DNA of 64,000 nt from Marinilongibacter aquaticus (GTDB taxonomy: Bacteria; Bacteroidota; Bacteroidia; Cytophagales; Spirosomataceae), in the NCBI RefSeq assembly GCF_020149935.1, contig NZ_CP083757.1:3001501-3065500 (forward strand). The letters are read 5' to 3'. Every line of letters starts with the position of its first letter. Within the stretch, counting starts at the first letter, position 1. Position numbers and translations under genes: made by a program. Below, one piece after another: positions 7,532-47,525 of the stretch. The notes below the pieces were generated by a model. That model did not search any database, had not been told where the DNA came from, and worked only from the letters and a program-made list of their open reading frames with translations.

Positions 7532-7564
7532 CCTGAGTTCATTTGTAAACCAAAAACGAAAAGC

Positions 7565-8380: not shown

Positions 8381-8418
8381 TTTTGCTTAAATTGGATTTT
8401 TAAACTAAATCCAAGACT

Positions 8419-10431: not shown

Positions 10432-10482
10432 TATTTGGGAATTTGCTTTTGAAAGCAGCTGTTTTCATTTTAAAAAATACGC

Positions 10483-11025
10483 GTGAATCTATCCGAAATC
10501 TATCTTCAAAATGCCCGTGAAAATTTCGCCGATTACAAATTGTTGGGTGAGCGGAGCATGGAACAAATGGCTGACGACGACCTTTTTTGGAAACCCAATG
10601 CAGTTTCGAACAGTGTGGCCGTTATTGTAAATCACTTGTGGGGCAATATGCTCTCGCGTTGGACCGACTTTTTGCATTCGGATGGAGAAAAGCCTTGGAG
10701 AAAACGTGACGAAGAATTCGAAGAGCAAATTACAAGCCGTAAGGAATTGGTAGAGAAATGGAATGCCGGTTGGGCTTGTCTTTTGCAAACCTTAGACAGT
10801 TTGGAGCCCGAGGATTTGGAGAAAAAAATCACTATTCGGGGGCAAGAACTGTTTGCCATTGAAGCCATCAACCGACAGCTCACGCATTATGCTTCGCATG
10901 TAGGACAGATTATGATGATTGGGAAAATGCGATTGGGCGAAAACTGGTCGGCACTTTCGATTCAAAAAGGGAAATCTCAAGAATTCAATCGAGAGATGAA
11001 AGGAATCAATCGGGAATCCATTTGA
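10483..11025 (+). CDS. DUF1572 / DinB-like protein
   Basis: A 180-residue cytosolic protein predicted to form a DinB-type four-helix bundle. Recognisable segments are the N-terminal FADYKLLGERSMEQM, then SVAVIVNHLWGNMLSRWTDF (with a candidate metal-binding His), and the late HYASHVGQIMMIGK (a second His region). These features fit DUF1572, a branch of the DinB/YfiT metalloenzyme superfamily, some of whose members use bacillithiol or mycothiol. That is of interest because bshC lies in the same window, but no specific reaction can be assigned. Translation starts at GTG 10483. Its 3' end overlaps the convergent adenosyltransferase gene by 20 bases. Confidence 0.75.
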   Translation: MNLSEIYLQNARENFADYKLLGERSMEQMADDDLFWKPNAVSNSVAVIVNHLWGNMLSRWTDFLHSDGEKPWRKRDEEFEEQITSRKELVEKWNAGWACLLQTLDSLEPEDLEKKITIRGQELFAIEAINRQLTHYASHVGQIMMIGKMRLGENWSALSIQKGKSQEFNREMKGINRESI

Positions 11026-11551
11026 CTTCTTCGACATTCAAATCTTGGCAACGTTTTCGGGCTAGTATAAAAAGATAATCCGAAAGGCGATTGAGCCAGA
11101 CGATTACGAGTGGATCAAGTTTTTCTGTGTCGTGCAGTCTTACCGTTTGCCTTTCGGCCCTTCGTGAAACGGTGCGTGCCAAATGAACATGCGAAACTTC
11201 GGCGTGCCCGCCGGGCAGAATAAAGTGTTTGAGTTCAGGAAGTTTGTCCACCATGGTGTCCATTTCCAGCTCCAATTCTTCTACGGCAGATTGTTCTATT
11301 TTCAGGCTTTCGCTGGCTTTGTTGCGGCTGTCGGCCAAGAGTGCACCGACGACAAATAGTCTGTTTTGTATTTTTAACAAGACGTCCTTTTCGTGCCCAT
11401 CTTCGCTTTGATCGCGAACCAAGCCAATCCAGGCGTTCAGCTCATCTAAGGAGCCAATGGCTTCCATTCGCAATGCTGCTTTGCTCACTCTTTCGCCTCC
11501 CCAAAGCGAGGTTTCTCCTAAATCGCCAGTTTTTGTATAAATCTTTGCCAT
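11006..11551 (-). CDS. PduO-type ATP:cob(I)alamin adenosyltransferase
   Basis: This enzyme moves the adenosyl group of ATP to cob(I)alamin, making adenosylcobalamin for B12-dependent enzymes. The 181 residues begin with MAKIYTKTGDLGETSLWGG, the ATP-binding segment of the PduO/MMAB family, followed by AIGSLDELNAWIGL. Near the C-terminus are RTVSRRAERQ, with the conserved basic residues, and VWLNRLSDYLFILAR. It is a cytosolic trimer in characterised relatives. No B12-dependent enzyme or cobalamin pathway gene is adjacent. The last 20 bases overlap the end of the convergent DUF1572 gene. Confidence 0.93.
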   Translation of the reverse strand: MAKIYTKTGDLGETSLWGGERVSKAALRMEAIGSLDELNAWIGLVRDQSEDGHEKDVLLKIQNRLFVVGALLADSRNKASESLKIEQSAVEELELEMDTMVDKLPELKHFILPGGHAEVSHVHLARTVSRRAERQTVRLHDTEKLDPLVIVWLNRLSDYLFILARKRCQDLNVEEVKWIPD

Positions 11552-11633
11552 AAATTACCGTATCCAAACTTGTAGGCTTAAATTTGCGGCCAATTCAACA
11601 AAAGCACAAGTATTTGTGCCTCTTCCCAAAGGA

Positions 11634-12137
11634 ATGGTAAATTTTTTCTTCAAAACGCTCCGTATAGTCTCTTTGATTGCCGTGCTGATCATGTTTATGT
11701 TTTGCTACGTGCAATTGCCCGACTCCATTGCGGTGAAACACGAGCCTACTGGCGAGCCGGTTGGTTTTATGGACAAACAACAGTTTTTTTATTTGGCCGC
11801 GGCACTTATTGTGGGGCTTTACTTGCTTTTTGGCCTGCTTCGCAACCAGTTCAAACGGCTGGATTTGAGCAAACTCAATCTCAACAGTCAATGGGCAAAC
11901 AAACCTGCTCATCTTTCGGCTATGTTGGTCGGCTGGGCCGATGCCTTTTTGGCCTTTCTCAATTTCTATATTTTGTTCAGCTTTTACGGTTTGAATAAAG
12001 TAAATCAGGAAATCAAACAAAGAATGTTGGAAGATTACAGCTGGTATTTGATTCTGGGTGGGTTGGGCTTGGTTTTCTTTGTTTGTTTCGTGCCTTTGCG
12101 ACTGCTTCTTTCGAAACCCAGTGAATACGTCGAATGA
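11634..12137 (+). CDS. Small inner-membrane protein of unknown function
   Basis: About 167 residues with roughly four hydrophobic segments: ISLIAVLIMFMFCYVQL near the start, FFYLAAALIVGLYLLFGLL, ADAFLAFLNFYILFSFYG, and YLILGGLGLVFFVCFVPLRLLL near the end. A periplasmic-looking stretch with KHEPTGEPVGFMDKQ lies between the first two. I do not recognise a named family. The open frame reaches GTG 11616, but the ATG at 11634 lies directly behind AAAGGA and starts just before the first hydrophobic segment, so it is preferred. The stop overlaps the queA start as ATGA (12134-12137), which suggests translational coupling. Confidence 0.65.
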   Translation: MVNFFFKTLRIVSLIAVLIMFMFCYVQLPDSIAVKHEPTGEPVGFMDKQQFFYLAAALIVGLYLLFGLLRNQFKRLDLSKLNLNSQWANKPAHLSAMLVGWADAFLAFLNFYILFSFYGLNKVNQEIKQRMLEDYSWYLILGGLGLVFFVCFVPLRLLLSKPSEYVE

Positions 12138-13339
12138 ACAAAGACATTCGCATAGCGGATTATGATTATCCATTGCCCGATGCTCGCATTGCAAAGTATC
12201 CCGTAGAGCCTCGAGACCAATCGAAACTGCTTGTATTCGAGAAAGGGCAGATAAAAGCGAAAGTTTTCACGGATTTGGTGGCCACCTTGCCCGATGATGC
12301 TTTTTTGGTTTTCAACAATACGCGGGTTATTCCAGCAAGACTGTTCTTCAGAAAAGCCACGGGAGCTTTGATCGAAATTTTCCTTTTGCACCCGGTTTCG
12401 CATGGCGGTATTGTGTCGCAAAGCATGGAGGCAACCGACGAAGTGGTGTGGGAATGCATGATCGGCAACAAAAAAAAGTGGAAAGGAGAAAGCTTGCTTC
12501 AGGAGGTGAAAACGGATGAACATTCCACCGTGTTTCAAGCCGAACTGATCGATCGAGAAAACAACCAAGTGCGTTTGAAGTGGGACAATGACGAGGTGTC
12601 ATTTGCCGAGTTGGTCAAAGCGTTTGGCCAAATGCCTTTGCCACCGTATTTGAACCGCGAAACGGAAGACCGTGATTTGGAAACATATCAAACGGTTTAT
12701 GCCGAAAATGAAGGAGCTGTGGCCGCTCCAACGGCTGGTTTGCATTTCACGGAAAGTACTTTCGGCGATTTGGTCAAAAGAGGAATTGATACGGGCTACA
12801 TCACGCTGCATGTGGGAGCGGGTACATTTCAGCCCGTGAAAGTAGATAATGCCCTTTCGCACGAAATGCACAATGAGCAAATGGTTTTCGATAAAACGTT
12901 TGTAGAGAAATTGGCTCAACACAGCAAAAATGTGATTCCCGTGGGCACTACCTCTATGCGGTCTTTAGAGAGTTTATATTGGTTTGGCGTGCGTTTGATT
13001 AAGGAAAACGCGAGCCACTTTTTTGTGCCCAAATTGTATCCCTATCAGTTTGAAAACGAAGAAGCAATTCCCGTGCAGGAAGCCCTGAAAGCCATATTGG
13101 ACCATATGGAAAAAAACGATCTCTCGAAATTGATTGGAGAAACGGAGATTTTCATTTTACCGGGGTATGTTTTTCGAATTTGCCGTGGAATAATCACCAA
13201 TTTCCATCAACCGAAATCTACATTGCTCTTGCTGATTTCTGCCTTGGTCGGCGAGAATTGGCGAAACATTTATGAGTACGCTTTGGAAAACGACTTCCGT
13301 TTTCTGAGTTACGGCGATTCGAGTTTGCTTATGCCTTAG
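12134..13339 (+). CDS. queA: S-adenosylmethionine:tRNA ribosyltransferase-isomerase
   Basis: QueA transfers and isomerises the ribose of S-adenosylmethionine onto preQ1 at position 34 of tRNAs, giving epoxyqueuosine. Diagnostic segments are YPLPDARIAKYPVEPRDQSK at the N-terminus, FNNTRVIPARL, GQMPLPPYLNR, AAPTAGLHFT, LHVGAGTFQPVKVD, GTTSMRSLES and, near the end, TNFHQPKSTLLLLISAL. The 401 residues exceed the roughly 350 of the E. coli enzyme, which is common in Bacteroidota. The start overlaps the stop of the small membrane protein, so the pair is probably one operon. The 3' end overlaps the convergent LacI-type gene by 11 bases. Confidence 0.96.
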   Translation: MNKDIRIADYDYPLPDARIAKYPVEPRDQSKLLVFEKGQIKAKVFTDLVATLPDDAFLVFNNTRVIPARLFFRKATGALIEIFLLHPVSHGGIVSQSMEATDEVVWECMIGNKKKWKGESLLQEVKTDEHSTVFQAELIDRENNQVRLKWDNDEVSFAELVKAFGQMPLPPYLNRETEDRDLETYQTVYAENEGAVAAPTAGLHFTESTFGDLVKRGIDTGYITLHVGAGTFQPVKVDNALSHEMHNEQMVFDKTFVEKLAQHSKNVIPVGTTSMRSLESLYWFGVRLIKENASHFFVPKLYPYQFENEEAIPVQEALKAILDHMEKNDLSKLIGETEIFILPGYVFRICRGIITNFHQPKSTLLLLISALVGENWRNIYEYALENDFRFLSYGDSSLLMP

Positions 13340-33030: not shown

Positions 33031-36000
33031 TTATTCAGACTGAAAGAAAATCTCTGGAACACGATTGTTGGCCGCAACCAGAAGTGCTTTTCTTCCGTTT
33101 ATCGTGATTGGTTCGAGATGCCTTACTTCGCCTTTTGTATAGAATCCCGACGTTTTTGGCGGAACGTACCGAAAGCCGTTTTGCCCTGAATTCATCAATA
33201 CATTGCCTTTGCTGGCGTCGAGCGTTCCGAATTGCGGGATCATATCCTGAAAGTTTCCGGCCAAAACAAGATCTGGCAAACCATCTTGGTTGATGTCTTC
33301 CACGGCCATGCTGTTTATGCAGGAAAACTGCACCTCAACAGGCAAACTGCTGGTTTCGAAATGCCCATTTCCCTTGTTTAGAGCCAAAATATGTCGGGTG
33401 AAATTCACTTGTTTTTGTAAGCTGTTGTCCAAAATATCTTCACTGAAAAGGTCTTTTAACTCCTTTTTGGCGTACTCGGCATGTTTTATATTTCGTGTAT
33501 TCAAATTCGGGAACTGTTCGGTCATGTCTCTTTTCAGAAAAACAGGAATGTCTTTTCCTTGTATCGATTTGGTAATGACCTTGTCCATGTTTCCATTTTT
33601 ATCGAAATCGTTGACCCAAAGTTTCAATGGGTTCAGGCTGTCGGGATGCAACACAAAATTCTCGCCCACATTCCCAAGGGCCAAATCTATTTTTCCATCA
33701 CCATTGAAATCAGCGGCTTGTATGCTTCCCCAAAAGCCGTAAAAATGGGCGAGCTTGTTTTCCATACGAACAAACTGGCCTCGCTCGAATTTAAAAGTGG
33801 TGATCGGCATCCAGTCTCCTGCAACAACCAATTCGGCTCTTTGGTCGCCGTCGAGGTCGGCCCATTGGGCATCACGCACCATTCCCAAAGCTTTAAATGC
33901 GGGAGCCATTGCGGAATTCCGCTCCTTGAAAATGCCTTTTCCTTCATTGACCAGCAGGTAACTGTCCGGATTGTCGCCGTAAAATTTCGGGGTGCTTCTG
34001 CTGCCTACAAACAAGTCGAGGTCGCCATCTTGGTCGAAATCGTAAGGTCGCACTACACTGGTGTTGTTGCTTTGCTGCGGAATCGCCTGAATGTCAAAAC
34101 TAAAATTGCCTTTGCCGTCATTCAGGTAAAGTCTGTCGCGTAGTTGGCGTTGTCCAGATTTGTATTCATTTCCGCCCGAACCCACGAAGAGATCGAGGTC
34201 GCCGTCGCCATCGGCATCGAAGAATGCGGCCGCCGTATCTTCAAAATCAATGAAATCGGAAAAGCTGCTTATCTCTTTTTCGATAAATTGAGCTCCTTTC
34301 TGAATCATCAAATGGGCTATTTGCCCTTTCGCTCCGCCGATAAAGATGTCGTCGAGTTTGTCGCCGTTTACATCGCCAACCGCTATGGCCGGGCCTTCGC
34401 TCGACAATTTCACGGGAATATTCCGTTCTTCGAAATAATCTTCGTATTCGTTCTCTTGGTGTTTGGGTAAAGGAATATGGGCCGCAACAAACAAGGTTTT
34501 CTTTTCCGTTTTGCTCGATGGCAACGCTCTTTCTTGGGCGTCATTTTGTGCAAAAGATAGCGTTTGGTTTGCTTCTTGATTGTAAGCCAGGCTTACTTTT
34601 TTATTCGGCCAATCGATTTGTAAAGAATCTATTTTTGTGGCCTGACCCAATCCGAAAGTTTGTGTGTATTCGGTGCCCGATTGAAAACCGCGACTCGGAG
34701 TCAATTCACGGCTGAGCACCTCATTGCCCACATAGAGTTTCATTTTGGCTCCAATGGCCATGCTGTTTTTGCCATCTCCATGCAGCTTGATTTTGATCCA
34801 ATTGCTTTTGTTGTCGGTTGTGTTTCGGTAAACAAAGGCCTCTTCATTCACATTGTTCACCACCAAGTCAAGGTCACCGTCGTTGTCCAAGTCGGCATAG
34901 GCCGCACCGTTCGAAAACGATTCTTGGTCGAAACCGAAGTCTTGGGCTCGTTCTTCGAATTTCATGTTTCCCGTGTTGTAGAAGAAGTTGTTGGCTTGTG
35001 GTTTCGAAGGAATATGATCGAGAATGCTTTGCAGGCCTGTTTTTTTGCCCGAAAGGGCCATTTTTTGGGAAATCTCATTGGCAAAGAAATCAATGAAATC
35101 CTGATCGATGACATCGTGAAGTATGCCGTTGCTAATGTAGATGTCGTTTCTGCGGTCGTTGTCGGCATCAAACATCAAGGCCCCCCAGCTCCAGTCTGAA
35201 GCATCTACTCCTGCATAATTGGCAATTTCGCTGTAGGTACCGTCGCCATTGTTCAATTGCAGGGTATTCTGCATATATTGTTTGTAAAAGCCCTTTTCCT
35301 GCTTGAGTTTGAATGTATAATGGCTTTCAAAGGATGTTGTGGTTTTCAGGCGTTCTTCTGTATAAGGCAGCATATCGGTCACAAAAATTTCCTGGTATCC
35401 GTCGTTGTTGATATCGGCCATGTCGGCACCCATTGAGGCGAGGCTGGTGTGATCGAAGTGCGACTCCAACTCTTCGCTGAAAGTGCCGTCTTGCTGATTG
35501 ACATACAGATAATCCTTTTCGAAAAAATCGTTGGAAATATAAATGTCGGGGTAGCTGTCGTTGTTGATGTCGCCCACGGTTACGCCCAGTCCAAAACCGA
35601 TCAAGCTTCCGTAAATTCCGGCTTCTTCGCTGACGTCTTTAAATTGACCCTCGTCATTGCGTAGCAACCTGTCGCCGCCACCTTTCAAGAAGTCCTTTAC
35701 GGGCCAATCTTTGGCTCTTAACTCCCTATTGTTGGCAAAATTCAAGGTGTTTACAGGGATGAAACTGTTGTTCAGGATGTAGGCGTCCAAATCCCCATCG
35801 AGGTCGTAATCGAAGAAGGCCGCGTGCGTCGTATAGCCATTGTCGTCGATACCGTATGCTTTGGCTTTATCGGTAAAAGTAAGATCGCCATTGTTGATGA
35901 ACATCGCATTTTCTTGGCCAATGCTTTTTTGATAGCCCGCATTGCACACATAGATGTCCAAAAGGCCGTCGGCATTGAGGTCGACCATCACCACGCCCGT

Positions 36001-36363
36001 GCTCCACTTCTGTGCCTCGGCCACTCCGGCCTTTTCGGTGATGTCTTCAAATTGGAAATTTCCTTTGTTCAGATACAATTTATTTGACCCCATGTTGGCC
36101 GTGAAATAGATATCTGCTAGGCCGTCGTTGTTGATGTCGCCAATCGCTACACCGCCTCCGTTGTAGAAGTTTCGGTAGTTGAAAATGTTGAAATTTTCAT
36201 GGTTTTCGATGTCGTTTCGGAAGAGAATGCCCGTGGTTTCGCCATCCATTAATTCAAAAACGCCTGGCTTTTTGTTTTCGCAAGCACTGAGAATCAGGCC
36301 GAAAATACCCAAAGTCAAGAATGTGAAGAATATGCCGTTTTTACCTTTGCTTCGATTTTTCAT
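33031..36363 (-). CDS. CRTAC1-like lipoprotein B with 13 FG-GAP/VCBS repeats and UnbV/ASPIC domain
   Basis: An 1110-residue surface or periplasmic lipoprotein (lipobox LILSAC, Cys28). It carries 13 calcium-loop repeats of the type GDINNDGLADIYF (DxNxDGxxD). Seven lie before the UnbV/ASPIC domain, at about residues 75, 128, 185, 264, 316, 399 and 491. That domain spans about 520-600 and holds IGAKMKLYVG, TPSRGFQSG and IDSLQIDWP. Six more repeats follow (for example GDVNGDKLDDIFIGG, FDADGDGDLDLFVGSGGNEY). Seven repeats suit a seven-bladed integrin-like beta-propeller, so two propellers flanking UnbV are likely. The gene lies 17 bases after its paralogue and is the last gene of the susCD block. 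Its function is unknown; glycan or protein binding is possible. Confidence 0.87.
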   Translation of the reverse strand: MKNRSKGKNGIFFTFLTLGIFGLILSACENKKPGVFELMDGETTGILFRNDIENHENFNIFNYRNFYNGGGVAIGDINNDGLADIYFTANMGSNKLYLNKGNFQFEDITEKAGVAEAQKWSTGVVMVDLNADGLLDIYVCNAGYQKSIGQENAMFINNGDLTFTDKAKAYGIDDNGYTTHAAFFDYDLDGDLDAYILNNSFIPVNTLNFANNRELRAKDWPVKDFLKGGGDRLLRNDEGQFKDVSEEAGIYGSLIGFGLGVTVGDINNDSYPDIYISNDFFEKDYLYVNQQDGTFSEELESHFDHTSLASMGADMADINNDGYQEIFVTDMLPYTEERLKTTTSFESHYTFKLKQEKGFYKQYMQNTLQLNNGDGTYSEIANYAGVDASDWSWGALMFDADNDRRNDIYISNGILHDVIDQDFIDFFANEISQKMALSGKKTGLQSILDHIPSKPQANNFFYNTGNMKFEERAQDFGFDQESFSNGAAYADLDNDGDLDLVVNNVNEEAFVYRNTTDNKSNWIKIKLHGDGKNSMAIGAKMKLYVGNEVLSRELTPSRGFQSGTEYTQTFGLGQATKIDSLQIDWPNKKVSLAYNQEANQTLSFAQNDAQERALPSSKTEKKTLFVAAHIPLPKHQENEYEDYFEERNIPVKLSSEGPAIAVGDVNGDKLDDIFIGGAKGQIAHLMIQKGAQFIEKEISSFSDFIDFEDTAAAFFDADGDGDLDLFVGSGGNEYKSGQRQLRDRLYLNDGKGNFSFDIQAIPQQSNNTSVVRPYDFDQDGDLDLFVGSRSTPKFYGDNPDSYLLVNEGKGIFKERNSAMAPAFKALGMVRDAQWADLDGDQRAELVVAGDWMPITTFKFERGQFVRMENKLAHFYGFWGSIQAADFNGDGKIDLALGNVGENFVLHPDSLNPLKLWVNDFDKNGNMDKVITKSIQGKDIPVFLKRDMTEQFPNLNTRNIKHAEYAKKELKDLFSEDILDNSLQKQVNFTRHILALNKGNGHFETSSLPVEVQFSCINSMAVEDINQDGLPDLVLAGNFQDMIPQFGTLDASKGNVLMNSGQNGFRYVPPKTSGFYTKGEVRHLEPITINGRKALLVAANNRVPEIFFQSE

Positions 36364-36380
36364 AATCTATTTCGCATGCT

Positions 36381-39300
36381 TTATTTGGCCAAAGGCTGAG
36401 TTGATTGAAAGAATTGCAAACTTTGATTGTTTCTGGCAGCAATCCAATAAATTTTATTTTGAATCCGAATCTTTTCAAGGTCACGGATATCGCCGTCAAG
36501 AAGTAATCCAGAGTCTGTCGGAAGAACTGCGGAGAATTGCCCAGCACCTAAATTGCGAAGAATTAAACCGAAAGAGGCGTCGTAACGCGACTGATACATG
36601 CTGGCTCCTTCAAAGTTTCCGCCAATAAGCACATCCATTTTTCCGTCATTGTCCACATCTTCTGTCTGGAGTGTCATTATTTTCGAGACTTGGGCCAATT
36701 GCGGCAATTTATGTGCAGTGAAATGGCCTTGGCCATCATTTTCGAAATATTGCGAGGCGAAGGTGTTCACTTCTTTCATGTCTGCTCCATCCAGTTCTCC
36801 ATCATCGAAAAGTGTTTCGATATCCTTTCCTGCGAAATCCTTGGTTTTCTTGTGCTTTTTGGTGAAAATTTCGGGCATCTGGCTTGCCATTTCTGCAAGA
36901 ACATTGGCTGGGAAATAATGCCCCGATTTACTGTAAGCGACAATTTGCTCGGTAGATCCGTTTCGGTCGATGTCTTTCAGGTACATGCGGAGCGTTCCGT
37001 TTTTTTCTTTCAACAATTTGGTGTTAGTTCCCAAGTTACCTCCGATCAAATCGATATCGCCATCTTGATCAAAATCGTAGGCGAGCAGGCTTTGCCAAAG
37101 CCCTGTGTATTTTTCCAAGCCGTTTTCTCGCGGCTCGAGTTTGCCTTTGTGGTTTATGAACGTTTTCACGGGCATCCAGTCGCCACAAATGTTGAGATCC
37201 AGCCAACCGTCATGGTCAACATCCACCCATTGGGCATCGGTAAGCATACCTGCAAGTCTTAGTTCTGGAGCCATTTGCTCTGTGACATCTGTGAAGTGCC
37301 CTTTTCCGTCATTTTGAAGCAAAAACGAGCGTGGGGTTTTTCCGTACTGCTTGGCCATTACACGGCTGCCCACCACCAAATCCAGATCGCCGTCTTTGTC
37401 GAAATCGGCGGCCTTTACAAAGGCTTTGTTTTCGAACATTTCGGGTAGTGCCGAATCGTCTTTTACGAAATTCCCATTGCCTGTGTTGCGGTAAAATCGA
37501 TCTTTTAACTGCCGCATTTGATCGAAATATTCGTTTCCGCCTGAGACCACATAGAGGTCCAAATCATTATCGCCGTCGGCATCGAAAAATAGAGCATATA
37601 CATCTTCAGATGCGGCGTCATTCGCAAACAGGTCTACATTATTGGGCTCAAAAGAGCCTTTACTTTTTTGTAGATAAAGCATTCCCGACTGATACTTGGC
37701 TCCGCAAACGAAGAAATCGTCGAGGCCATCACCGTTAACATCGGCCACAGCGATTTTGGGGCCTTCGATGGAAAGTTTAAAGGGCATGAGCAGTTCGCGG
37801 TTGAAATCGTAATACGTGTTTTCTTTATGTACGAAATCAATTCCTTTGGGACTATCCTCTTCCTCAAAGAGCATCTTGTTTTCTCGCAAGGGCCAAGTGC
37901 GTATGTGCTCCACTGCATTTTGCTCGTCCAAATTCAACAATTGATTGATCTGTGGATTGTAAACGACTTCCGTTTTCTGGCTTTCCCAAATTACCCAAAG
38001 CGAGTCTATTTTTTGGGATTGACCCAAACCAAAATGCAATTTGGGTTCCACCGAGCTCAGAAAACCGCGAGTGGGCATAAGTTGGGCCACTTGGGTGCTG
38101 CTGTCGGAGAATAAAACTACCTTGGTGCCAATGCCAAAGGTGTTTTCTTTTTCGCCTTTGAATTGCAATTGAATGTAATTGTTCGGGGTGCCTTGGTTAA
38201 GGTATATGCCGGCAGGGGCATTGATATCGTTGGTAATCAAGTCTAAATCGCCGTCATTGTCCAAGTCGGCATATACGCTGCCATTTGAGCAATTCTTTTC
38301 GCCGAATCCCCAATCGTGGGAAAGGTCTTCAAACTGAAGGTTGCCTGTATTTCGATAGAAATAATTGTGCCATTTTCCGTCTGGCATCATCTCGATGGCC
38401 TTTTGTTCGAGGCTGAGCGAGGTGAGCACGTTGTAGTGCAGCGAATCGGAAAGCACAAACTGGAGATAGTCCAAATCGTTTGGTCGACGTAAAATGCCAT
38501 TGGTAATGAAAATGTCCTTTTGGCCGTCGTTGTCGAAATCGGCCATCAGTGGGCTCCAGCTCCAGTCTGTAGCCGCAACGCCCGCCATGAGTGCGATGTC
38601 GGAAAATTTCTCACCGCCAAGGTTCAGCTGCAAACAGTTTCGACTGTATTGGTTGTAGTAGCCGAATTCCAGTTTATACAGGTAAACATCCAGAGGGTCT
38701 TCGCCCACAGTCGATTTTTCCACAGACTCGTCTTCTGGGTACATATCCAGAGTGATGATGTCGAAATAGCCGTCATTGTTGATGTCGGCCACATCCGAGC
38801 CCATGGAAGAGCGGCTCAAATGTTTGAAATGCGATTTGATCTCTTCTTTGAAAGTGCCGTCTTTTTGGTTGATGTAGTAGTAGTCGTCTTCATGAAAATC
38901 GTTGCTCACGTAAATGTCTTCCCAGCCGTCGTTGTTGATATCGGCTACAGCCAAACCTAGCCCATAGCCCATGGCAGCTTGGTAAATTCCCGTTTTCTGG
39001 CTGGCGTCAACAAATTTCCCGCCGATGTTCTCGAAAAGAATGTCACCGGCTTCATTGTCTTTCAAGGTGCGGGTATTCACACGATCGTAAGAGCGGGTAT
39101 TGTGCACGGCATGGTTCAATAGGTAGCAATCGAGATCGCCGTCTTTATCGTAGTCGAAAAAGGCCGATTGCGTGGAAAAGCCCGAGAAATCGAGGCCGTA
39201 TTGATGGGATTGTTCGGTAAATGTAAGATCGCCGTTGTTGATGTAGAGTTCATTGTTGCCCTGAAGGCCAAGGTATTTACTTACCGCACAAACATAGATA

Positions 39301-39695
39301 TCGAGCAGGCCGTCGCCGTTGATATCGGCCATACTTACACCGGTTTGCCATTCTGAAAAACCAGCGATCTGTGCGGTTTCGCTGATGTCTTCGAATTGGG
39401 GCTTGCCGTTTTCAAGGCCTTTGTTCAAGTAAAGTTTATTCTCGCCTTGATTCGAAACGAAGAAGAGGTCTGTCAGGCCGTCGTTGTTGATATCGCCCGC
39501 AGCCACACCGCCGCCGTCGTAGAAATAGAGGTAGTCGAGAATGTTGAAATCATCACTTTCTTTGAGTGTATTTTGGAAAGTAATGCCCGATTCTTCGGGC
39601 GAGAGTTTGTTGAATTGTCTTTGGGCGGGTTCGGTTTGGCAGGCCAAGTCAAGAACCAAAATGCTCAGGAAAGCGATAGCTTTTTTGCAAAACAT
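36381..39695 (-). CDS. CRTAC1-like lipoprotein A with 13 FG-GAP/VCBS repeats and UnbV/ASPIC domain
   Basis: An 1104-residue lipoprotein (lipobox in LVLDLAC, Cys19), paralogous to the next gene over its whole length. Seven repeats lie at about residues 68, 123, 181, 251, 303, 386 and 477 (for example GDINNDGLTDLFFV, FDYDKDGDLDCYLLN, ADLDNDGDLDLITND). Then comes the UnbV/ASPIC domain, about 505-590 (IGTKVVLFSD, MPTRGFLSS, IDSLWVIWE), and then six repeats including FDADGDNDLDLYVVSGGNEY and EDVDNDGKMDVLIGGN. The loops should bind calcium. No enzymatic motif is seen. It follows susD on the same strand after a 79-base gap holding a terminator-like hairpin. A role as an accessory surface-binding protein of the SusCD system is inferred from position. 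Confidence 0.87.
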   Translation of the reverse strand: MFCKKAIAFLSILVLDLACQTEPAQRQFNKLSPEESGITFQNTLKESDDFNILDYLYFYDGGGVAAGDINNDGLTDLFFVSNQGENKLYLNKGLENGKPQFEDISETAQIAGFSEWQTGVSMADINGDGLLDIYVCAVSKYLGLQGNNELYINNGDLTFTEQSHQYGLDFSGFSTQSAFFDYDKDGDLDCYLLNHAVHNTRSYDRVNTRTLKDNEAGDILFENIGGKFVDASQKTGIYQAAMGYGLGLAVADINNDGWEDIYVSNDFHEDDYYYINQKDGTFKEEIKSHFKHLSRSSMGSDVADINNDGYFDIITLDMYPEDESVEKSTVGEDPLDVYLYKLEFGYYNQYSRNCLQLNLGGEKFSDIALMAGVAATDWSWSPLMADFDNDGQKDIFITNGILRRPNDLDYLQFVLSDSLHYNVLTSLSLEQKAIEMMPDGKWHNYFYRNTGNLQFEDLSHDWGFGEKNCSNGSVYADLDNDGDLDLITNDINAPAGIYLNQGTPNNYIQLQFKGEKENTFGIGTKVVLFSDSSTQVAQLMPTRGFLSSVEPKLHFGLGQSQKIDSLWVIWESQKTEVVYNPQINQLLNLDEQNAVEHIRTWPLRENKMLFEEEDSPKGIDFVHKENTYYDFNRELLMPFKLSIEGPKIAVADVNGDGLDDFFVCGAKYQSGMLYLQKSKGSFEPNNVDLFANDAASEDVYALFFDADGDNDLDLYVVSGGNEYFDQMRQLKDRFYRNTGNGNFVKDDSALPEMFENKAFVKAADFDKDGDLDLVVGSRVMAKQYGKTPRSFLLQNDGKGHFTDVTEQMAPELRLAGMLTDAQWVDVDHDGWLDLNICGDWMPVKTFINHKGKLEPRENGLEKYTGLWQSLLAYDFDQDGDIDLIGGNLGTNTKLLKEKNGTLRMYLKDIDRNGSTEQIVAYSKSGHYFPANVLAEMASQMPEIFTKKHKKTKDFAGKDIETLFDDGELDGADMKEVNTFASQYFENDGQGHFTAHKLPQLAQVSKIMTLQTEDVDNDGKMDVLIGGNFEGASMYQSRYDASFGLILRNLGAGQFSAVLPTDSGLLLDGDIRDLEKIRIQNKIYWIAARNNQSLQFFQSTQPLAK

Positions 39696-39714
39696 ATCTT
39701 TAATCGATTGTACT

Positions 39715-39751
39715 AAAAAATGAAGCGAGGCAGTCTTTACGAATGCCTCGC
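39715..39751 (-). terminator. Terminator-like hairpin after susD
   Basis: Read on the minus strand, GCGAGGCA and TGCCTCGC pair perfectly around an 11-base loop, followed by TTCA and a six-T run. It begins 24 bases after the susD stop and 20 bases before the start of CRTAC1-like lipoprotein A. It could reduce expression of the two downstream genes relative to susCD. Confidence 0.65.
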
Positions 39752-39774
39752 CAATTTATACAGTTTGCCCAAGA

Positions 39775-41265
39775 TTAGTTTGTATAGCCTGGGTTTTGTT
39801 GCAACAATGGGTTTGCATCGATACGTGGCTGTGGAATCGGGAACAACTCTTTGTTTTTGTCGGTGTTGCTCATGAATTTCCACGGAGTGGTGAATTTGTC
39901 GAAACGGATCAGGTCGTTTCTTCTCCAGCCTTCCCACGCCAACTCACGACCGCGTTCTGCCAAAATGGCGTCGCTGTCTACGCTGGTCAATGCTTCGATA
40001 CCCGAACGCTCACGCACGGTATTTACCAAATCCAAGGCTTCGGCTGTTTTGCCCAAATGAAGACCCGCTTCGGCTTTCATCAGCAGGGCATCTGCCAAAC
40101 GGAAGAACACGAAATCGTTGTCTTGATCAGAAACTTGGTTGCCTACTTGAATTTGATATTTCTGTGAACGTGCACCTGCAATCTGATATTCAGGATCGGC
40201 AGATGTCATTTCGTCTTTAGGAATATCTGCGATGAACTCCAATGGATTGTTGTTCGCATCCAAAAGGATTTCGCCGTCCGATGAATACTGCTGTCCGACC
40301 AACCACATGGCTTTTCTTTCATCTGTAGAGTCGAAAGAATTGTAGAAATCGGCCATTGTACAGAATCCGTTCCACGGGCTTACTCCCAAGTCGAAAGTTC
40401 TCGCATTCTGATAATGCAGCGTACGCATCTGGAAGTTCATTCCACCCGCCAATGATTTATCAAATGGAATGTTGAAGATGGCTTCTGGCGAGTTCTCATT
40501 GGTTGTGGTAAAGTTATCCAAGGTGCTGGCGGTCAAGCTATAGTTTCCGGCCGAAATCACTTTGTCGATAGTGTCATATGCTTTTTGCCATTCGGCGGTG
40601 CCGTTGTATACTTCGGCGTTCAGGTATACCTTGGCCAATAGCATATTGCCCACATCTTGGTTCATACGGGCATACACTTTTTCGCTGGGTAAGCTGGGGA
40701 TAGATTCCGTCAGCTCTTTTACGATAAAGGCATATACCTCAGCTCTAGATTTTGTTTCGGCAACAGAATTGGCATCCGTCACGATCGGTACGTTTCCGAA
40801 CATATCGATGGCCATGAAATAGTAGAAGGCACGAATTGTACGCAGCTCATCTACCGCCGCTTGGCTATTGCCCACTACAGGGATCAATTGGTTTACTTTC
40901 GAAATCTCTCCAAAAATAAAGCCCCACACGTCGTTGATCGGCGTATGCAATGGGCCGTAGGTGTGTCTCGAATAATGCAGCCAGTTTCCGCCGTCATACC
41001 AGTCGCCACCGCGTGTAGGTACGATCAATTCGTCGGATGTGACCTCACTTGGGTTGAACCAGTTGTCCATCAATCCACGCATACCACCATAGGCTGGGCC
41101 AACGGTTGCTTTGATCTGATCATCGGTAAGCAAAAACTGGTCTGCAGGAATAGCATCGTAAACGGGTTCTGTAAGATCTGTACAGGATTGCAATGGCAAG
41201 GAAAGAATGACACCGCCTGCCAAAGCTTTAAGAAGATTATTTTTATATTTTTTCATTTCGTTCAT
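39775..41265 (-). CDS. SusD/RagB-family outer-membrane lipoprotein
   Basis: A 496-residue SusD-like protein, the surface lid that binds a glycan or peptide and passes it to the SusC channel. The signal ends in a lipobox (SLPLQSC, Cys28). The TPR-type helical domain includes AAVDELRTIRAFYYFMAIDMFGNVPIV, the hallmark segment with FYY and GNVP. The C-terminus has FRLADALLMKAEAGLHLGKT, ALDLVNTVRERSG, GRELAWEGWRRNDLIRFDKF and the ending NPLLQQNPGYTN. It starts 16 bases after the susC stop on the same strand. Its ligand cannot be named. An alternative ATG lies three codons downstream at 41256. Confidence 0.95.
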   Translation of the reverse strand: MNEMKKYKNNLLKALAGGVILSLPLQSCTDLTEPVYDAIPADQFLLTDDQIKATVGPAYGGMRGLMDNWFNPSEVTSDELIVPTRGGDWYDGGNWLHYSRHTYGPLHTPINDVWGFIFGEISKVNQLIPVVGNSQAAVDELRTIRAFYYFMAIDMFGNVPIVTDANSVAETKSRAEVYAFIVKELTESIPSLPSEKVYARMNQDVGNMLLAKVYLNAEVYNGTAEWQKAYDTIDKVISAGNYSLTASTLDNFTTTNENSPEAIFNIPFDKSLAGGMNFQMRTLHYQNARTFDLGVSPWNGFCTMADFYNSFDSTDERKAMWLVGQQYSSDGEILLDANNNPLEFIADIPKDEMTSADPEYQIAGARSQKYQIQVGNQVSDQDNDFVFFRLADALLMKAEAGLHLGKTAEALDLVNTVRERSGIEALTSVDSDAILAERGRELAWEGWRRNDLIRFDKFTTPWKFMSNTDKNKELFPIPQPRIDANPLLQQNPGYTN

Positions 41266-41281
41266 GTTTTAAGTCTAATCT

Positions 41282-44200
41282 TTAGAAGCTTAAGTTGGCA
41301 CCAATTGTGAAAGCACGGGTTTTGTAATAGGTCTCACGTACGTCGATCCCCGGAGCTCTTCTGTTGTCTCCGTCTACTTTCAATTCTTGGCTCACTTCCG
41401 GGTCTACACCTGTATATTTGGTGAAAAGCAACAGGTTGTTGCCCGCGATATAGAAACGTACGCGGTTGATGAAGTCTCCTTTCACAGGAAGGTTGTAGCC
41501 CAAAGAAGCGTTGTTGACACGAAGGAAATTCCCTTTCTCCACGTAATAGTCCATCGGAATAGTGGTGTTGTCGTTGATTGGTGAAGTTAAAGCAGATTTC
41601 AAGGCATTCGATTCTGCAATACGACCATCCTGACGGCCTATCAACAGGCGGTTGGTGTTCATGATGTCGTTGCCCAAATTGCTCGTCAACATAAACATCA
41701 AATCGAAATTTTTATAACGGAAATTGTTCGTCAAACTTCCCACAAATACGGGGTTCGGGTTTCCAATATACGTTCTGTCGTCACTGTTTGGATCAACCAC
41801 ACCGTCGCCATTCAAATCTTTGAATACGTATTTGCCTTGATCGTCGATATGATCAACAATCGCTCCGTAGAACGCTCCCACGGGGTGTCCTTTAGTCAAT
41901 ACCGAGAAGTTTACCGCCGATGTACCACGAATGTAGTTACCCAAGCTAGTAGTTAGGAAAATGCGATCCGGAGCTGCGAATTTGTTGCTGCTCAAGCCAA
42001 TCACTTCGTTGTGGTTGATCGACGCGGCAAGTGTTGAGCTGAAAGAGAAGTCCGTTTTATCTACCCATTGATATGTCAACGTACTCTCAAAACCTTCGTT
42101 TTGCATGCTACCCACGTTGGCTAGAATAGTAGGATATACGTATCCCGCTTCCTGAGGTGCGTTCACTGTGTACAGCAAGTCTTTGGTTTGACGCGTGTAA
42201 TAATCCAATGAACCGGAAAGCTTGCCTTTCATAATCGAGAAGTCAACCCCAATGCCGTAGTTTTCGTTTACTTCCCATTTCAAATCCGGGTTCGGGTTTG
42301 ATGTGATCTGATAAGCGGGCAAGAAAGTGCCTGTTTCGCCATCGTAATAGGTTCCGTTCTGACCGTAGAAAGAGCGTGACTGCAAAGGATCGATCCCTTC
42401 AGAGTTACCTGTACGACCCCAGCTGGCACGGATTTTCATGTTGTCAAGCCAAGCCAAAGATTGCATGAAAGGCTCTTCGCTGATTGCCCAACCTACAGAC
42501 AAAGAAGGGAAGAAACCCCATTTGTTGTTGTCTCCAAATTTGGTTGAGCCATCGCGACGGAAGTTGGCCGTGGCAAAATATTTGTCTTTCAAGCTATACT
42601 GCACGCGGCCTAAGAATGAAACCAGTTTGTATTCGTTTTTATACGAACCAATGAAATCGGGATGGCTTCGGATACCCAAACCAAGTCCGATATTGTCTGC
42701 ATGCAAAAGGTCGGTAAGGAAGTTGTTGTTTGATACTCCAAAACCGTTTTTCTCCACATCTTGGTATGTGTAACCTACCAATACATTGAAATTGCTGCTG
42801 CCCAAATCTTTCACGTAGTTCAATGTCGACTCAAACTGTTTGTCGTTTACGGCATCCAAACCTCTGAAAGCCGAGTTGCCCAAGAAGCTACGCACGGGTA
42901 CACCCGCATTTGAGTTTTGGAAAGCGTTTGTGTTTTTGGTTTCTGTACGCAAAGTTCCGCCCAAGTGGAAAACCAATCCCGGAAGAATCGTATAGTTTGC
43001 TTGTACATTCGAAAGCAAGTTGATCAGGTTCTCGTCTTGTCTTCTGTTCTCGGCCACAGCCAATGGGTTGAAGTTTGAGAACGTACCGGGCAATTGGAAA
43101 TAAGTGCCGTCGCTATTGTAAACGGGGTCTGTTGGACGCATGTTTTGGGCAAGGCCCAGAGCGATGTTTTGAGCAATTCCACTGGTTGAGTTGATCGCCG
43201 AGAAGTTGAATTTCAAATTCAGTTTATCGTTCAAGGCTTTAGAATCCAAGTTTAAGCGAGCATTCCAGCGGCTTTTGTCCGAACCGATCATCGTACCCAC
43301 TTGATCGAGATAACCCACAGATGCACGATAAGAGGAGTTTTGACTACCGCCAGACACACTCAAATTGTAGTTTTGTGTATTGGCCGTACGGGTAATTACA
43401 TCCAGCCAATCGGTATTAGCTCCATTGTCGTCGAAATCGACACCAAATTTTTGGGCGGCTTGTCTGAACTCAGAACCATTCATCAAATCTGGTTTTTGAG
43501 CGATAGTTTCAAATCCGTAATATGTATTGAAATCTACCGAAGTTTTGCCCGATTTTCCTCTTTTCGTGGTGATGATAATTACACCGTTGGCACCTCTGGA
43601 ACCATAAATCGCAGCAGAAGAAGCATCACGAAGAACATCGATTGTCGCGATATCGTTGGGGTTTACGTTTTCGATCGGTGCACCTATCACCCCATCGATT
43701 ACGTACAAAGGGCCAGACCCGGCACTCAAAGAACCCGTACCTCTAAGACGCACAGTTGGGGATGAATTCGGGTCGCCACTACTTTGGGTAATCACAAGGC
43801 CAGCCACCTTTCCTTGGGCCGCAGCCAGCGGGTTGGTTACAACCCCAGGGTTGAAGTCTTTCGAATCTACAGTCGATACCGTACCCGAAATCGATTTACG
43901 TTTCTGCGTACCGTATCCCACAACCACAACTTCTTCCAAGGTTTGATCGTCACTGTCTAGCGTGACATCGATAACACTTCGGTTGCCTACGACTTCTTCT
44001 TTCGTTTGCATACCTACAAAACTGAACACGATGGTACCATCACTGGGTACATTGTTCAGTACATAATTTCCTTCAAAATCAGTAGAAACGCCATTGGTCG
44101 TTCCCTTTACTTGCACAGTTACACCCGGGAGCTCTTCGCCGTTACTGTCTTTTACATTCCCTGAAACTTTGATGCCCTGAGCCTGAGCGGCAAAGGTCAG

Positions 44201-44296
44201 TCCGCATAATGCAAACACGAAAAGGATCACTTTTCGCCACATTCCAATTGATCGACCGTAGCCCGAAAGGCTGGGTGGGTAAAATTGATTTGCCAT
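41282..44296 (-). CDS. SusC/RagA-family TonB-dependent outer-membrane transporter
   Basis: A 1004-residue TonB-linked channel. After the signal (FALCGLTFAAQAQ, to about residue 40) comes a carboxypeptidase-D-like domain (about 43-115, VSGNVKDSNGEELPGVTVQV). The plug follows, with the SusC hallmarks GYGTQKRKSISGTVS, NPLAAAQGKVAGLVITQ, VRLRGTGS and PLYVIDGVIG, and then a 22-stranded barrel ending in AFTIGANLSF. There is no STN domain, so it is not wired to a sigma/anti-sigma pair. It pairs with the SusD gene 16 bases downstream. A good promoter lies 90 bases upstream. Start ATG 44296 is kept; ATG 44242 (MWRKVILFVF) is the alternative. Confidence 0.95.
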   Translation of the reverse strand: MANQFYPPSLSGYGRSIGMWRKVILFVFALCGLTFAAQAQGIKVSGNVKDSNGEELPGVTVQVKGTTNGVSTDFEGNYVLNNVPSDGTIVFSFVGMQTKEEVVGNRSVIDVTLDSDDQTLEEVVVVGYGTQKRKSISGTVSTVDSKDFNPGVVTNPLAAAQGKVAGLVITQSSGDPNSSPTVRLRGTGSLSAGSGPLYVIDGVIGAPIENVNPNDIATIDVLRDASSAAIYGSRGANGVIIITTKRGKSGKTSVDFNTYYGFETIAQKPDLMNGSEFRQAAQKFGVDFDDNGANTDWLDVITRTANTQNYNLSVSGGSQNSSYRASVGYLDQVGTMIGSDKSRWNARLNLDSKALNDKLNLKFNFSAINSTSGIAQNIALGLAQNMRPTDPVYNSDGTYFQLPGTFSNFNPLAVAENRRQDENLINLLSNVQANYTILPGLVFHLGGTLRTETKNTNAFQNSNAGVPVRSFLGNSAFRGLDAVNDKQFESTLNYVKDLGSSNFNVLVGYTYQDVEKNGFGVSNNNFLTDLLHADNIGLGLGIRSHPDFIGSYKNEYKLVSFLGRVQYSLKDKYFATANFRRDGSTKFGDNNKWGFFPSLSVGWAISEEPFMQSLAWLDNMKIRASWGRTGNSEGIDPLQSRSFYGQNGTYYDGETGTFLPAYQITSNPNPDLKWEVNENYGIGVDFSIMKGKLSGSLDYYTRQTKDLLYTVNAPQEAGYVYPTILANVGSMQNEGFESTLTYQWVDKTDFSFSSTLAASINHNEVIGLSSNKFAAPDRIFLTTSLGNYIRGTSAVNFSVLTKGHPVGAFYGAIVDHIDDQGKYVFKDLNGDGVVDPNSDDRTYIGNPNPVFVGSLTNNFRYKNFDLMFMLTSNLGNDIMNTNRLLIGRQDGRIAESNALKSALTSPINDNTTIPMDYYVEKGNFLRVNNASLGYNLPVKGDFINRVRFYIAGNNLLLFTKYTGVDPEVSQELKVDGDNRRAPGIDVRETYYKTRAFTIGANLSF

Positions 44297-44385: not shown

Positions 44386-44418
44386 CAAAATTACCATTAT
44401 TTAACGCCTAAGTCCAAA
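44386..44418 (-). promoter_or_regulatory. Promoter of the susCD block
   Basis: Read on the minus strand, TTTG (44415-44418) and TAATTTTG (44386-44393, exact TAnnTTTG) are separated by 21 bases, close to the Bacteroidota promoter arrangement. The -7 box ends 89 bases before the susC start. Confidence 0.6.
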
Positions 44419-44558: not shown

Positions 44559-47525
44559 ATGCAATTCGAAGACTTAAAAAGAACCTTTCAGGGGGAGTTC
44601 CTCGACGATAAAATCACGAAAACACTGTATGCAACCGATGCTTCTGCCTACCGTGAGGTGCCTTTAGCCGTGGCTTTTCCAAAAGGAGAAGAGGATATTC
44701 TGAACTTAATAAAATTCGCAAACAAGAAAAAAATCACGCTTATACCGCGTACGGCGGGCACTTCTCTGGCCGGACAAGTGGTGGGCAAAGGTATTGTCGT
44801 TGATGTTTCGCGAACGTTCACGAAGATTTTGGAAGTGAACAAAGAAGAGTCTTGGGTGCGTGTACAACCTGGCGTTGTTCGCGACGAACTGAACCTGCAT
44901 TTGGCACAATACGACTTGTTTTTCGGTCCCGAAACCAGTACCGCCAACCGGGCCATGATTGGTGGAATGGTGGGAAACAATTCTTGTGGATCGAATTCGG
45001 TGATTTACGGCAGTACCCGCGACCATGTGATGGAAGTGAGGGGCTTTTTGAGTGATGGCAGTCCGGTTGTGTTTAAGGAATTGTCTGAAGAGGCGTTCGA
45101 GGAGAAGGTGGAAAAGGCCAAGTTTAAACCCGTACCGGAAAGAAATTTGGAAGAGCGGCTCTATCTGCATATTGCCGAGCTTTTGGCCAATAAAGACAAT
45201 GCCGAGGAAATCAGAAAAGAATTCCCGAAAAGGAGCATCCCGAGGCGAAATACAGGCTACGCCATCGATGAATTGCTTGAGACAAACGTGTTTAGTCCAG
45301 AATCGGAAAGGAATTTCAATTTCTGTAATTTGATTGCCGGTTCGGAAGGCACCTTGATGTTCATCACAGAAATAAAACTGCACGTAAACCCAACGCCTCC
45401 GAAATTCAAAGCTGTTGTGGCAGGGCATTTCGAGTCTATCGACCATTCATTGCGGGCCAACATTATCGCTCTGAAATACAAACCTTCGGCTGTGGAGCTG
45501 ATGGATCATTATATTTTGGAATGTACCAAGGCCAATCGCGAGCAAATGGCGAATCGCTTTTTTGTGGAGGGAGACCCTAAAGCACTTTTGGTAATTGAGC
45601 TTTTTGGCGAGAGCCAGGACGAAATCGTGGAAAAGGCCCAAAAAATGGAAGCTGAAATGCGGGCTGCGGGCTACGGCTATCATTTTCCGGTGCTTTTTGG
45701 AGAGGATATCAAAAAGGTGTGGACATTGAGGAAGGCCGGCTTGGGGCTTCTTTCGAATTTACCGGGCGATGAGAAGGCGGTGCCTGTGATCGAAGATACG
45801 GCCGTAGATGTGCACGATTTGCCCGAATACATTGCCGAGTTCAATGAGACTTTGGCCAAACGCGGCATGAGTTGTGTGCATTATGCCCATGCAGGCTCGG
45901 GCGAGTTGCACTTGAGACCGATCATCAATTTGAAAACTAAGGAAGGAAATGAGCAATTCAGGGCTGTGGCTCAGGATATTTCAGATTTGGTGAAGAAATA
46001 CAAAGGTTCTTTATCCGGCGAACATGGCGATGGCCGACTGCGGGCTGAATTTATTCCGCAACAAATCGGAGAGAAGAATTACCAGTTGATTCGAAAACTC
46101 AAATACACTTGGGATCCGAATGGTGTTTTCAATGCCAACAAGATCGTAGACACGCCGGCCATGAACGAGATGCTGCGTTATGAGCCTGGCCAACAAACAC
46201 CCGCTTTCGGCACGGTGTTTAAGTTTAAAGATCAGAATATTTTACAGCATGCCGAACAGTGCAATGGCTCGGGAGATTGTAGGAAATCGCATTTGAGCGG
46301 AGGCACAATGTGCCCCAGCTATATGGCCACCAAAAACGAGAAGGACACGACACGTGCTCGGGCCAATATTTTGCGTGAGGCTTTGACTCGTAAAGAGGGC
46401 CAGGTGGCTTTCGGTCCGGTTTCTGGCGATGGACTTGATCGTTTCGACAGCAAAGAGGTGAAAGAGGTTTTGGATTTGTGCTTGCTGTGCAAAGGTTGTA
46501 AGTCTGAATGCCCGAGCAATGTGGACATGGCCAAAATGAAAATGGAGTTCCTCTACCATTATCAAAAGAAAAATGGCGTGCCTACCCGATCGAAGATGAT
46601 TGCCAATTTTGCCAAGATGAGCAAATTGGGGGCAATTGCTCCCGGTTTCTACAACTTCCTGTTTAAAACAGACAGCCTCAGAAGGTTGGGCAATAAATTG
46701 GTCGGTTTTCATCCCGACAGAACCATGCCCTTGTTGCACAATACCACTTTGCAAAAATGGTACAACAAGCACAAAGCCGAATTTCAGGAGGGCGAAAAAG
46801 GAAAGGTGTATTTCTTTTGCGACGAGTTTACGAATTACAACGATGTGCACATTGGGCAAAAGGCTATTCAGTTGTTGCACCAATTGGGTTATGCGGTTAT
46901 CATTCCAGAGCATGTCGACAGCGGGAGGCCTTACCTTTCAAAAGGTATGCTCGATGAAGGCAAAGAGCGGGCAAATTTGAATGTAGAAATGCTTGCGGAT
47001 CTGATTTCGGCCGACACGCCTTTGCTTGGCATTGAGCCGTCTTGTATTCTGGCTTTCCGCGATGATTATCCCGAATTGGTGAACGACGAATTGGTGGAAA
47101 AGGCCGAGGCTTTGGCTCAAAACGCTTTAATGATCGATGAGTTTATTGCCCGTGAAATGGATGCGAAACGCATTGACAAAACGATGTTCAAGACAGAAAA
47201 GAGATTGGTCAAACTGCATGGGCATTGTCAACAAAAGGCGGTAAGCTCCATGGTGCCCACCAAAAAAATGCTTTCGCTTCCGGGCTACGAGGTGCAGCTG
47301 ATTCCGAGCGGTTGCTGTGGCATGAGTGGCTCGTTTGGTTATGAAAGGGAGCATTACGACATCTCCATGAAAATTGGCGAATTGGTGCTTTTCCCTACCG
47401 TACGCAAGCAGGCAGACGATGTGATTATTGCCGCACCGGGCACCAGTTGCCGCCATCAGATTCACGACGGCACCGGAAAAGAAGCCAAACACCCTGTGGA
47501 GATACTTTGGGAAGCTTTGAATTGA
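44559..47525 (+). CDS. Fused FAD-linked oxidase and Fe-S oxidoreductase (GlcD-GlcF / YdiJ type)
   Basis: A 988-residue cytosolic or membrane-associated 2-hydroxyacid dehydrogenase. Residues about 20-530 form an FAD-binding PCMH/GlcD-like oxidase (TLIPRTAGTSLAGQ, GPETSTANRAMIGGMVGNNS, HYAHAGSGELHLRP, SGEHGDGRLRAEF). Next come two ferredoxin-type clusters (CNGSGDCRKSHLSGGTMCPSY and CLLCKGCKSECPSN). Two cysteine-rich CCG segments close it (HGHCQQKA, SGCCGMSGSFGYE). The fusion resembles YdiJ and D-lactate or glycolate dehydrogenases that pass electrons to quinone. The substrate is not deducible. It lies 25 bases before pepA in the same direction and carries its own -7 box. Confidence 0.88.
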   Translation: MQFEDLKRTFQGEFLDDKITKTLYATDASAYREVPLAVAFPKGEEDILNLIKFANKKKITLIPRTAGTSLAGQVVGKGIVVDVSRTFTKILEVNKEESWVRVQPGVVRDELNLHLAQYDLFFGPETSTANRAMIGGMVGNNSCGSNSVIYGSTRDHVMEVRGFLSDGSPVVFKELSEEAFEEKVEKAKFKPVPERNLEERLYLHIAELLANKDNAEEIRKEFPKRSIPRRNTGYAIDELLETNVFSPESERNFNFCNLIAGSEGTLMFITEIKLHVNPTPPKFKAVVAGHFESIDHSLRANIIALKYKPSAVELMDHYILECTKANREQMANRFFVEGDPKALLVIELFGESQDEIVEKAQKMEAEMRAAGYGYHFPVLFGEDIKKVWTLRKAGLGLLSNLPGDEKAVPVIEDTAVDVHDLPEYIAEFNETLAKRGMSCVHYAHAGSGELHLRPIINLKTKEGNEQFRAVAQDISDLVKKYKGSLSGEHGDGRLRAEFIPQQIGEKNYQLIRKLKYTWDPNGVFNANKIVDTPAMNEMLRYEPGQQTPAFGTVFKFKDQNILQHAEQCNGSGDCRKSHLSGGTMCPSYMATKNEKDTTRARANILREALTRKEGQVAFGPVSGDGLDRFDSKEVKEVLDLCLLCKGCKSECPSNVDMAKMKMEFLYHYQKKNGVPTRSKMIANFAKMSKLGAIAPGFYNFLFKTDSLRRLGNKLVGFHPDRTMPLLHNTTLQKWYNKHKAEFQEGEKGKVYFFCDEFTNYNDVHIGQKAIQLLHQLGYAVIIPEHVDSGRPYLSKGMLDEGKERANLNVEMLADLISADTPLLGIEPSCILAFRDDYPELVNDELVEKAEALAQNALMIDEFIAREMDAKRIDKTMFKTEKRLVKLHGHCQQKAVSSMVPTKKMLSLPGYEVQLIPSGCCGMSGSFGYEREHYDISMKIGELVLFPTVRKQADDVIIAAPGTSCRHQIHDGTGKEAKHPVEILWEALN

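Follow-up and report, generated by a model that had tools for sequence, protein, structure and literature searches.

Downstream of a SusC/SusD pair (SusCD), the bacterium Marinilongibacter aquaticus encodes two lipoproteins (LPs) of about 1,100 residues that belong to a large family with one predicted domain make-up, whose long forms are mostly linked to SusCD. The genes lie in a stretch of 64,000 nucleotides, here called the window (contig NZ_CP083757.1, positions 3,001,501 to 3,065,500). We consider it reasonably likely that the locus is a SusCD importer of carbohydrate (oligosaccharide), with the two LPs, one each of two types named A and B, as calcium-stabilised double-propeller accessory surface proteins; this reading is based on homology, fold prediction, synteny and pairing. 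The four-gene cluster itself is real: the open reading frames sit exactly where the initial annotation had placed them, on the minus strand and with gaps of 16, 79 and 17 bases.

44296..41282, minus strand: susC, 1004 aa, TonB-dependent outer-membrane transporter with a CarboxypepD_reg-like N-terminal domain
41265..39775, minus strand: susD, 496 aa, lid lipoprotein, PF07980
39695..36381, minus strand: LP1 (type B), 1104 aa, lipoprotein with a CRTAC1-like propeller, an ASPIC domain and a second propeller
36363..33031, minus strand: LP2 (type A), 1110 aa, paralogous lipoprotein with the same domain make-up as LP1

SusC matched TIGR04056 with 784 bits (cut-off 368), which identifies it as a SusC/RagA-family TonB-linked transporter; no STN domain was found in it. 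The gene 16 bases 3′ of it on the same strand encodes a SusD-family protein (PF07980, 112 bits). The operon and the genes directly beside it were found to encode neither a carbohydrate-active enzyme (CAZyme) nor any other enzyme that cleaves polymers, and no dedicated regulator (sigma/anti-sigma pair, hybrid two-component system or SusR) adjoins the operon; on both counts the locus falls outside the definition of a polysaccharide utilisation locus. The earlier statement that the cluster has no enzyme or regulator holds for the four-gene strand; a FAD/Fe-S dehydrogenase gene stands divergently 262 bases from susC.

Conserved linkage in related genomes was the check that the initial annotation had set for itself, and the linkage was recovered at several scales. 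Scanning 84,980 species genomes with an alignment of the LP family yielded 80 named loci, mostly from Bacteroidota. In 65 of them the sequence reached more than 6.5 kb upstream, and 57 of these 65 had SusC and SusD genes contiguous, on the same strand and directly upstream. As these loci had been picked by similarity to the query, an even draw across the phylum was added. Here 12 of the 20 long ASPIC genes (~1,100 aa) were linked to SusCD compared to none of the 17 short ones (~600 aa; Fisher p = 7e-5), the draw omitting an eighteenth short-class locus in which short and long genes are mixed beside a SusCD. This difference indicates that the linkage is specific to the double-propeller class, which also has more calcium loops than the short class (median 14 vs 7). 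Within the source genome, 10 of the 11 UnbV_ASPIC genes adjoin SusC/SusD, and at locus L015 the ASPIC gene is convergent with its SusCD. Orthologues of the window SusD (E <= 1e-80) were detected in 12 of 38 relatives and not in the two other genus members searched; at least one LP follows at 10 of these 12 loci and two or more at 7, and one SusD-orthologue locus (L041) is cut by a contig end. Of 61 Bacteroidota genomes drawn evenly, 28 had the UnbV_ASPIC domain; one Bacteroides control genome had no match to it.

The alignment of LP1 with LP2 spans both proteins from end to end, at 43% identity. Each contains about 11 FG-GAP stretches (PF13517) plus one UnbV_ASPIC domain (PF07593; 64 and 74 bits, cut-off 23.4), so that both belong to the family that joins this domain to an FG-GAP propeller, in agreement with their first description as two paralogous lipoproteins with a UnbV/ASPIC domain. 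Each LP has 14 calcium-type loops (DxDxDGxxD), which the ASPIC domain divides into two sets of seven; the original count was 13 repeats. A lipobox is present, and the N-terminal cysteine is invariant in a 26-sequence alignment. An AlphaFold model of LP1, predicted from an alignment of 80 relatives (mean predicted local distance difference test score, pLDDT, 93.2; predicted template modelling score 0.93), matched the crystal structure of mouse CRTAC1 (9ETN) over residues 25-593 (Z 39.8, 2.4 Å over 458 residues, 23% identity), and its residues from about 604 to 1104 are predicted to form a second beta-propeller. Two seven-bladed propellers would fit the seven loops found per half. The label CRTAC1-like therefore suits the N-terminal half of both LPs and not the C-terminal half, and the LPs are not single propellers of CRTAC1 length. 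In a sequence search of solved structures the family profile matched only CRTAC1 and integrin alpha chains, and hence no bacterial member appears to have been solved; no bacterial relative was among the matches listed, the VIA-align and Foldseek lists being filled by the second propeller.

One alternative is that the LPs are themselves enzymes, one or both propellers acting on the ligand at the surface (as a lyase or dehydratase, for example), in which case the operon would not be enzyme-free. The second half of LP1 does resemble the propeller of aldos-2-ulose dehydratase (4A7K, Z 28.5), but many unrelated propellers score alike (Z 24-31). The long class also shares a conserved DWSW motif outside the calcium loops, which is carried by 94% of the proteins in the survey set and 83% of those in the even draw, compared to 13% of the short class, and two LP types could catalyse different steps. 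However, no catalytic family was matched by the sequence of LP1 or LP2, LP operons often encode separate hydrolases, and one LP family accompanies very different hydrolases. We regard enzymatic LPs as unlikely.

A tree of 161 long lipoproteins separated the two LPs of the window, with LP2 in clade A (63 members, support 1.0) and LP1 in clade B (65 members, support only 0.60). Both types occurred in 38 of the 41 operons with two or more copies all falling in A or B. Label shuffling gave 23.7 such operons on average and reached 38 in none of 20,000 trials, where related operons are not independent and the number of independent events is accordingly smaller. Type A usually precedes type B after susD, and in the window B comes before A. 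A recent tandem duplication giving rise to LP1 and LP2 was ruled out, as the two belong to different clades that both have orthologues in other genera, and as their order also differs. Judged from the sequences, LP1 and LP2 are ancient, distinct types that have been kept together. Their co-occurrence suggests that the two act together, and its frequency in multi-copy operons favours a working pair over spare copies.

The SusC lineages were examined in a tree of 64 LP-linked SusCs and 36 SusCs without LPs, the unlinked set coming from the source genome only. The LP label changed 12 times on this tree, compared to 29.6 times (minimum 22) with shuffled labels. Evolutionary distances correlated at 0.91 between SusC and SusD and at 0.50 between SusC and the first LP (0.54-0.64 within types); no value as high arose in 2,000 permutations, and the correlations partly reflect shared species history. 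As the SusC-LP correlation is below that of SusC and SusD, the LPs have been exchanged at times. Separately, two SusC genes (G000:C1:1163786-1166869 and 2113282-2116365) obtained identical scores and their adjoining SusD genes near-identical ones; these pairs are apparently a recent duplication or a mobile copy.

Two candidate expression signals were noted around the operon.

39715..39752, minus strand: terminator-like stem-loop with a T run in the susD-LP1 gap, possible attenuator (fold z -3.5)
44386..44418, minus strand: Bacteroidota-type promoter-like site TTTG-N21-TAATTTTG upstream of susC, a weak pattern match

Terminator-like hairpins were found in 42 of 59 susD-LP junctions, compared to none of 86 susC-susD and one of 64 LP-LP junctions, with 0.4 expected from shuffles. 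Their sequence varies and their position after susD is constant. Such a hairpin would allow SusC and SusD to be produced in larger amounts than the LPs. It is not unique to LP operons: in the source genome 4 of 12 susD genes with a gene other than an LP downstream on the same strand carry one too (p = 0.02 for the difference). The promoter-like pattern is about as frequent in the window as chance would give (4 occurrences, 3.7 expected); the copy at susC is intergenic and in the right orientation.

FG-GAP/ASPIC-type domains often mediate protein contacts. The LPs, with integrin- and CRTAC1-like propellers, might accordingly be surface adhesins or scaffolds, co-transcribed with SusCD and standing outside uptake, and a terminator-like hairpin at the susD-LP junctions may partly uncouple their expression. 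Yet gene order, type pairing and SusC lineage specificity are conserved across the phylum and the linkage is restricted to the long class, and we find an adhesin role quite unlikely.

For clues to the ligand we turned to neighbouring genes. In other loci the LPs are followed by genes of glycoside hydrolase (GH) families GH100, GH127, GH30, GH65, GH37, GH97 and GH5, by sulfatases, and also by PfkB and FGGY kinases and MFS or SSF transporters; sigma and FecR-type neighbours occur in 10 and 9 of the 80 survey loci, respectively. Because glycoside hydrolases, sugar kinases and sugar transporters follow the LPs elsewhere, the family at large points to carbohydrates. The same neighbours contradict the initial proposal of a ligand that needs no cleavage, if taken as general: many relatives carry glycoside hydrolases, sulfatases, sugar kinases or sigma/anti-sigma pairs, which rules out freedom from enzymes as a rule of the family. 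The enzyme-free operon is one variant of it. Among solved structures, the nearest relatives of the window SusC are a dextran transporter SusC (8AA4, E 1e-117) and levan SusCs (5T3R, 8A9Y).

The same architecture could also serve the import of something other than carbohydrate, such as a hydroxy acid or a peptide. The lack of a CAZyme at the window locus would agree with this, as would the gene opposite susC and a DeoR-type gene in relatives.

44559-47525, divergent from susC, 262 bases off: FAD/Fe-S dehydrogenase gene, nearest to YdiJ and well below its cut-off

The dehydrogenase is likewise divergent from susC in five relatives from several genera (L034, L035, L037, L038 and L042), three of which have a DeoR-type gene between the two (L034 by Pfam, L035 and L042 by eye). 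However, each of the 21 genomes tested had the enzyme, whether they had this SusCD or lacked it. We therefore did not accept it as a pathway enzyme of this SusCD and treated its adjacency as position only. With a SusC closest to the dextran and levan SusCs, and a wider LP family that sits with CAZymes, a non-carbohydrate ligand appears improbable.

The reading that we favour, a carbohydrate importer with double-propeller accessory lipoproteins, would work as follows. By homology, SusC is the TonB-driven channel and SusD its lid. LP1 and LP2, lipid-anchored according to their lipobox and probably surface-exposed, may hold the place of the SusE/SusF-type binding proteins of gut Bacteroides. Replacement of surface-binding proteins by the twin lipoproteins had been suggested at the outset, and the LP genes do stand immediately behind susD, a position held in other systems by genes for surface glycan-binding proteins. 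The LPs, probably docked on SusCD, would catch the ligand near or on it and pass it to the SusD-SusC cavity, and the hairpin after susD probably reduces their expression relative to susCD. As the operon here encodes no hydrolase, the ligand is probably an oligosaccharide cut small by other enzymes or organisms.

A capture role is made plausible by two precedents. In stable utilisomes SusC carries additional lipoproteins, and the levan and dextran utilisomes of Bacteroides thetaiotaomicron combine SusC2D2 with GH and surface glycan-binding lipoproteins (PMC7618045); BtuG is a seven-bladed propeller lipoprotein that forms a lid on BtuB (PMC10404256). A further-reaching version, which we put forward tentatively and hold to be doubtful, is that types A and B form an obligate heteromeric capture module docked on SusC2D2, and that the resulting SusCD machines are a class of their own, spread across the phylum and different from the gut utilisomes. 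The absence of such a class from the standard gut models would explain why it has not been studied.

Several observations weigh against the importer reading. Contact with SusCD, the ligand and the localisation of the LPs are each something that we infer. The LP locus L017 of the source genome has no SusCD nearby, L044 has a SusCD orthologue and no LP, and SusCD was not detected near 8 of the 20 long ASPIC genes of the even draw. The co-divergence of SusC with the LPs (0.50-0.64) is weaker than that with SusD (0.91), and a crude pattern count gave no clear enrichment of an acidic surface-export motif after the lipid cysteine. The carbohydrate ligand is deduced from neighbours in other genomes, and the window operon has none of those genes; nor were they seen, by eye, inside the closest orthologue operons. 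At L017 (6122-10540) the long-form LP comes directly after a gene of ~400 aa that looks like N-acylglucosamine 2-epimerase, by eye only.

Other recurrent neighbours and variants were observed during the survey. At L012 (genome 1706001-1726000) SusCD is followed by three ASPIC genes of differing build, one encoding a full double propeller, one a TPR-FG-GAP-ASPIC fusion (9069-12593) and one a short form (7201-8988), and these by an NqrB/RnfD-like membrane protein. A lipoprotein-like protein of the PAP2 superfamily (~445 aa, e.g. L097:16229-17578), which we take to be akin to vanadium-dependent haloperoxidases, is encoded near LP genes in 30 of the 80 survey loci, and in 25 of those 30 it is no more than three genes away, downstream and on the same strand. 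It was dropped as a partner of the window operon: common elsewhere, it had no match in the source genome, a weak negative. A lipoprotein family of ~190 aa is encoded between susD and an LP or between LPs in 16 of the 80 loci (L086:9444-10007, L051:9262-9885); it had no Pfam or NCBIfam match, and its predicted model (pLDDT 90.6) had no significant match in the PDB. A protein of ~300 aa that combines a hydrophobic stretch at its N-terminus with a GyrI-like domain was seen in 12 of the 80 (e.g. L119:8710-9618); in many A/B operons its gene comes after that of the PAP2 protein.

Bacteroidota take up nutrients mainly through SusCD systems, whose structural biology comes mostly from gut Bacteroides. 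White et al. (PMC7618045) pointed out that the generality of utilisomes needs study in soil and marine relatives. A search of the open-access literature, with subscription papers outside its scope, returned nothing relevant on SusCD combined with FG-GAP, ASPIC, UnbV, VCBS or CRTAC1. SusCD is known and so are the domains, and these neighbours have surely been listed in gene annotations before; what was not found in the literature is the phylum-wide association between SusCD and a family of double-propeller lipoproteins that comes in two types. Double-propeller LPs probably take part in sugar capture in many such bacteria and have been overlooked. If they dock on SusCD, they would serve as a convenient marker by which to recognise carbohydrate importers in genomes from sea and soil, CAZyme-free loci included, and as a clear structural target.

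Compared with known systems, the operon resembles the levan and dextran utilisomes in its SusC-SusD core encoded together with two further lipoproteins, and its SusC is nearest to theirs among solved structures. It differs from them in that the lipoproteins are paralogous double propellers rather than a hydrolase and a binding protein, and in that the window operon has no hydrolase. BtuG on BtuB offers a similar case of a propeller lipoprotein working with a TonB-dependent transporter, without any claim of sequence relation; BtuG is itself the lid, whereas here the partner is a SusC-family transporter with SusD as a separate lid and the double propellers are additional. The LPs share with SusE/SusF and other surface glycan-binding proteins the position of their genes directly after susD, but are built as propeller-ASPIC-propeller with 14 calcium-type loops. 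The short ASPIC class, unlike the LPs, is not linked to SusCD. With CRTAC1 (9ETN) and the UnbV_ASPIC family the LPs share the fold of LP1 residues 25-593 and a UnbV_ASPIC domain above cut-off, but unlike CRTAC1 they are lipid-anchored, twice as long, extended by a second propeller of ~500 residues and tied to a bacterial transporter.

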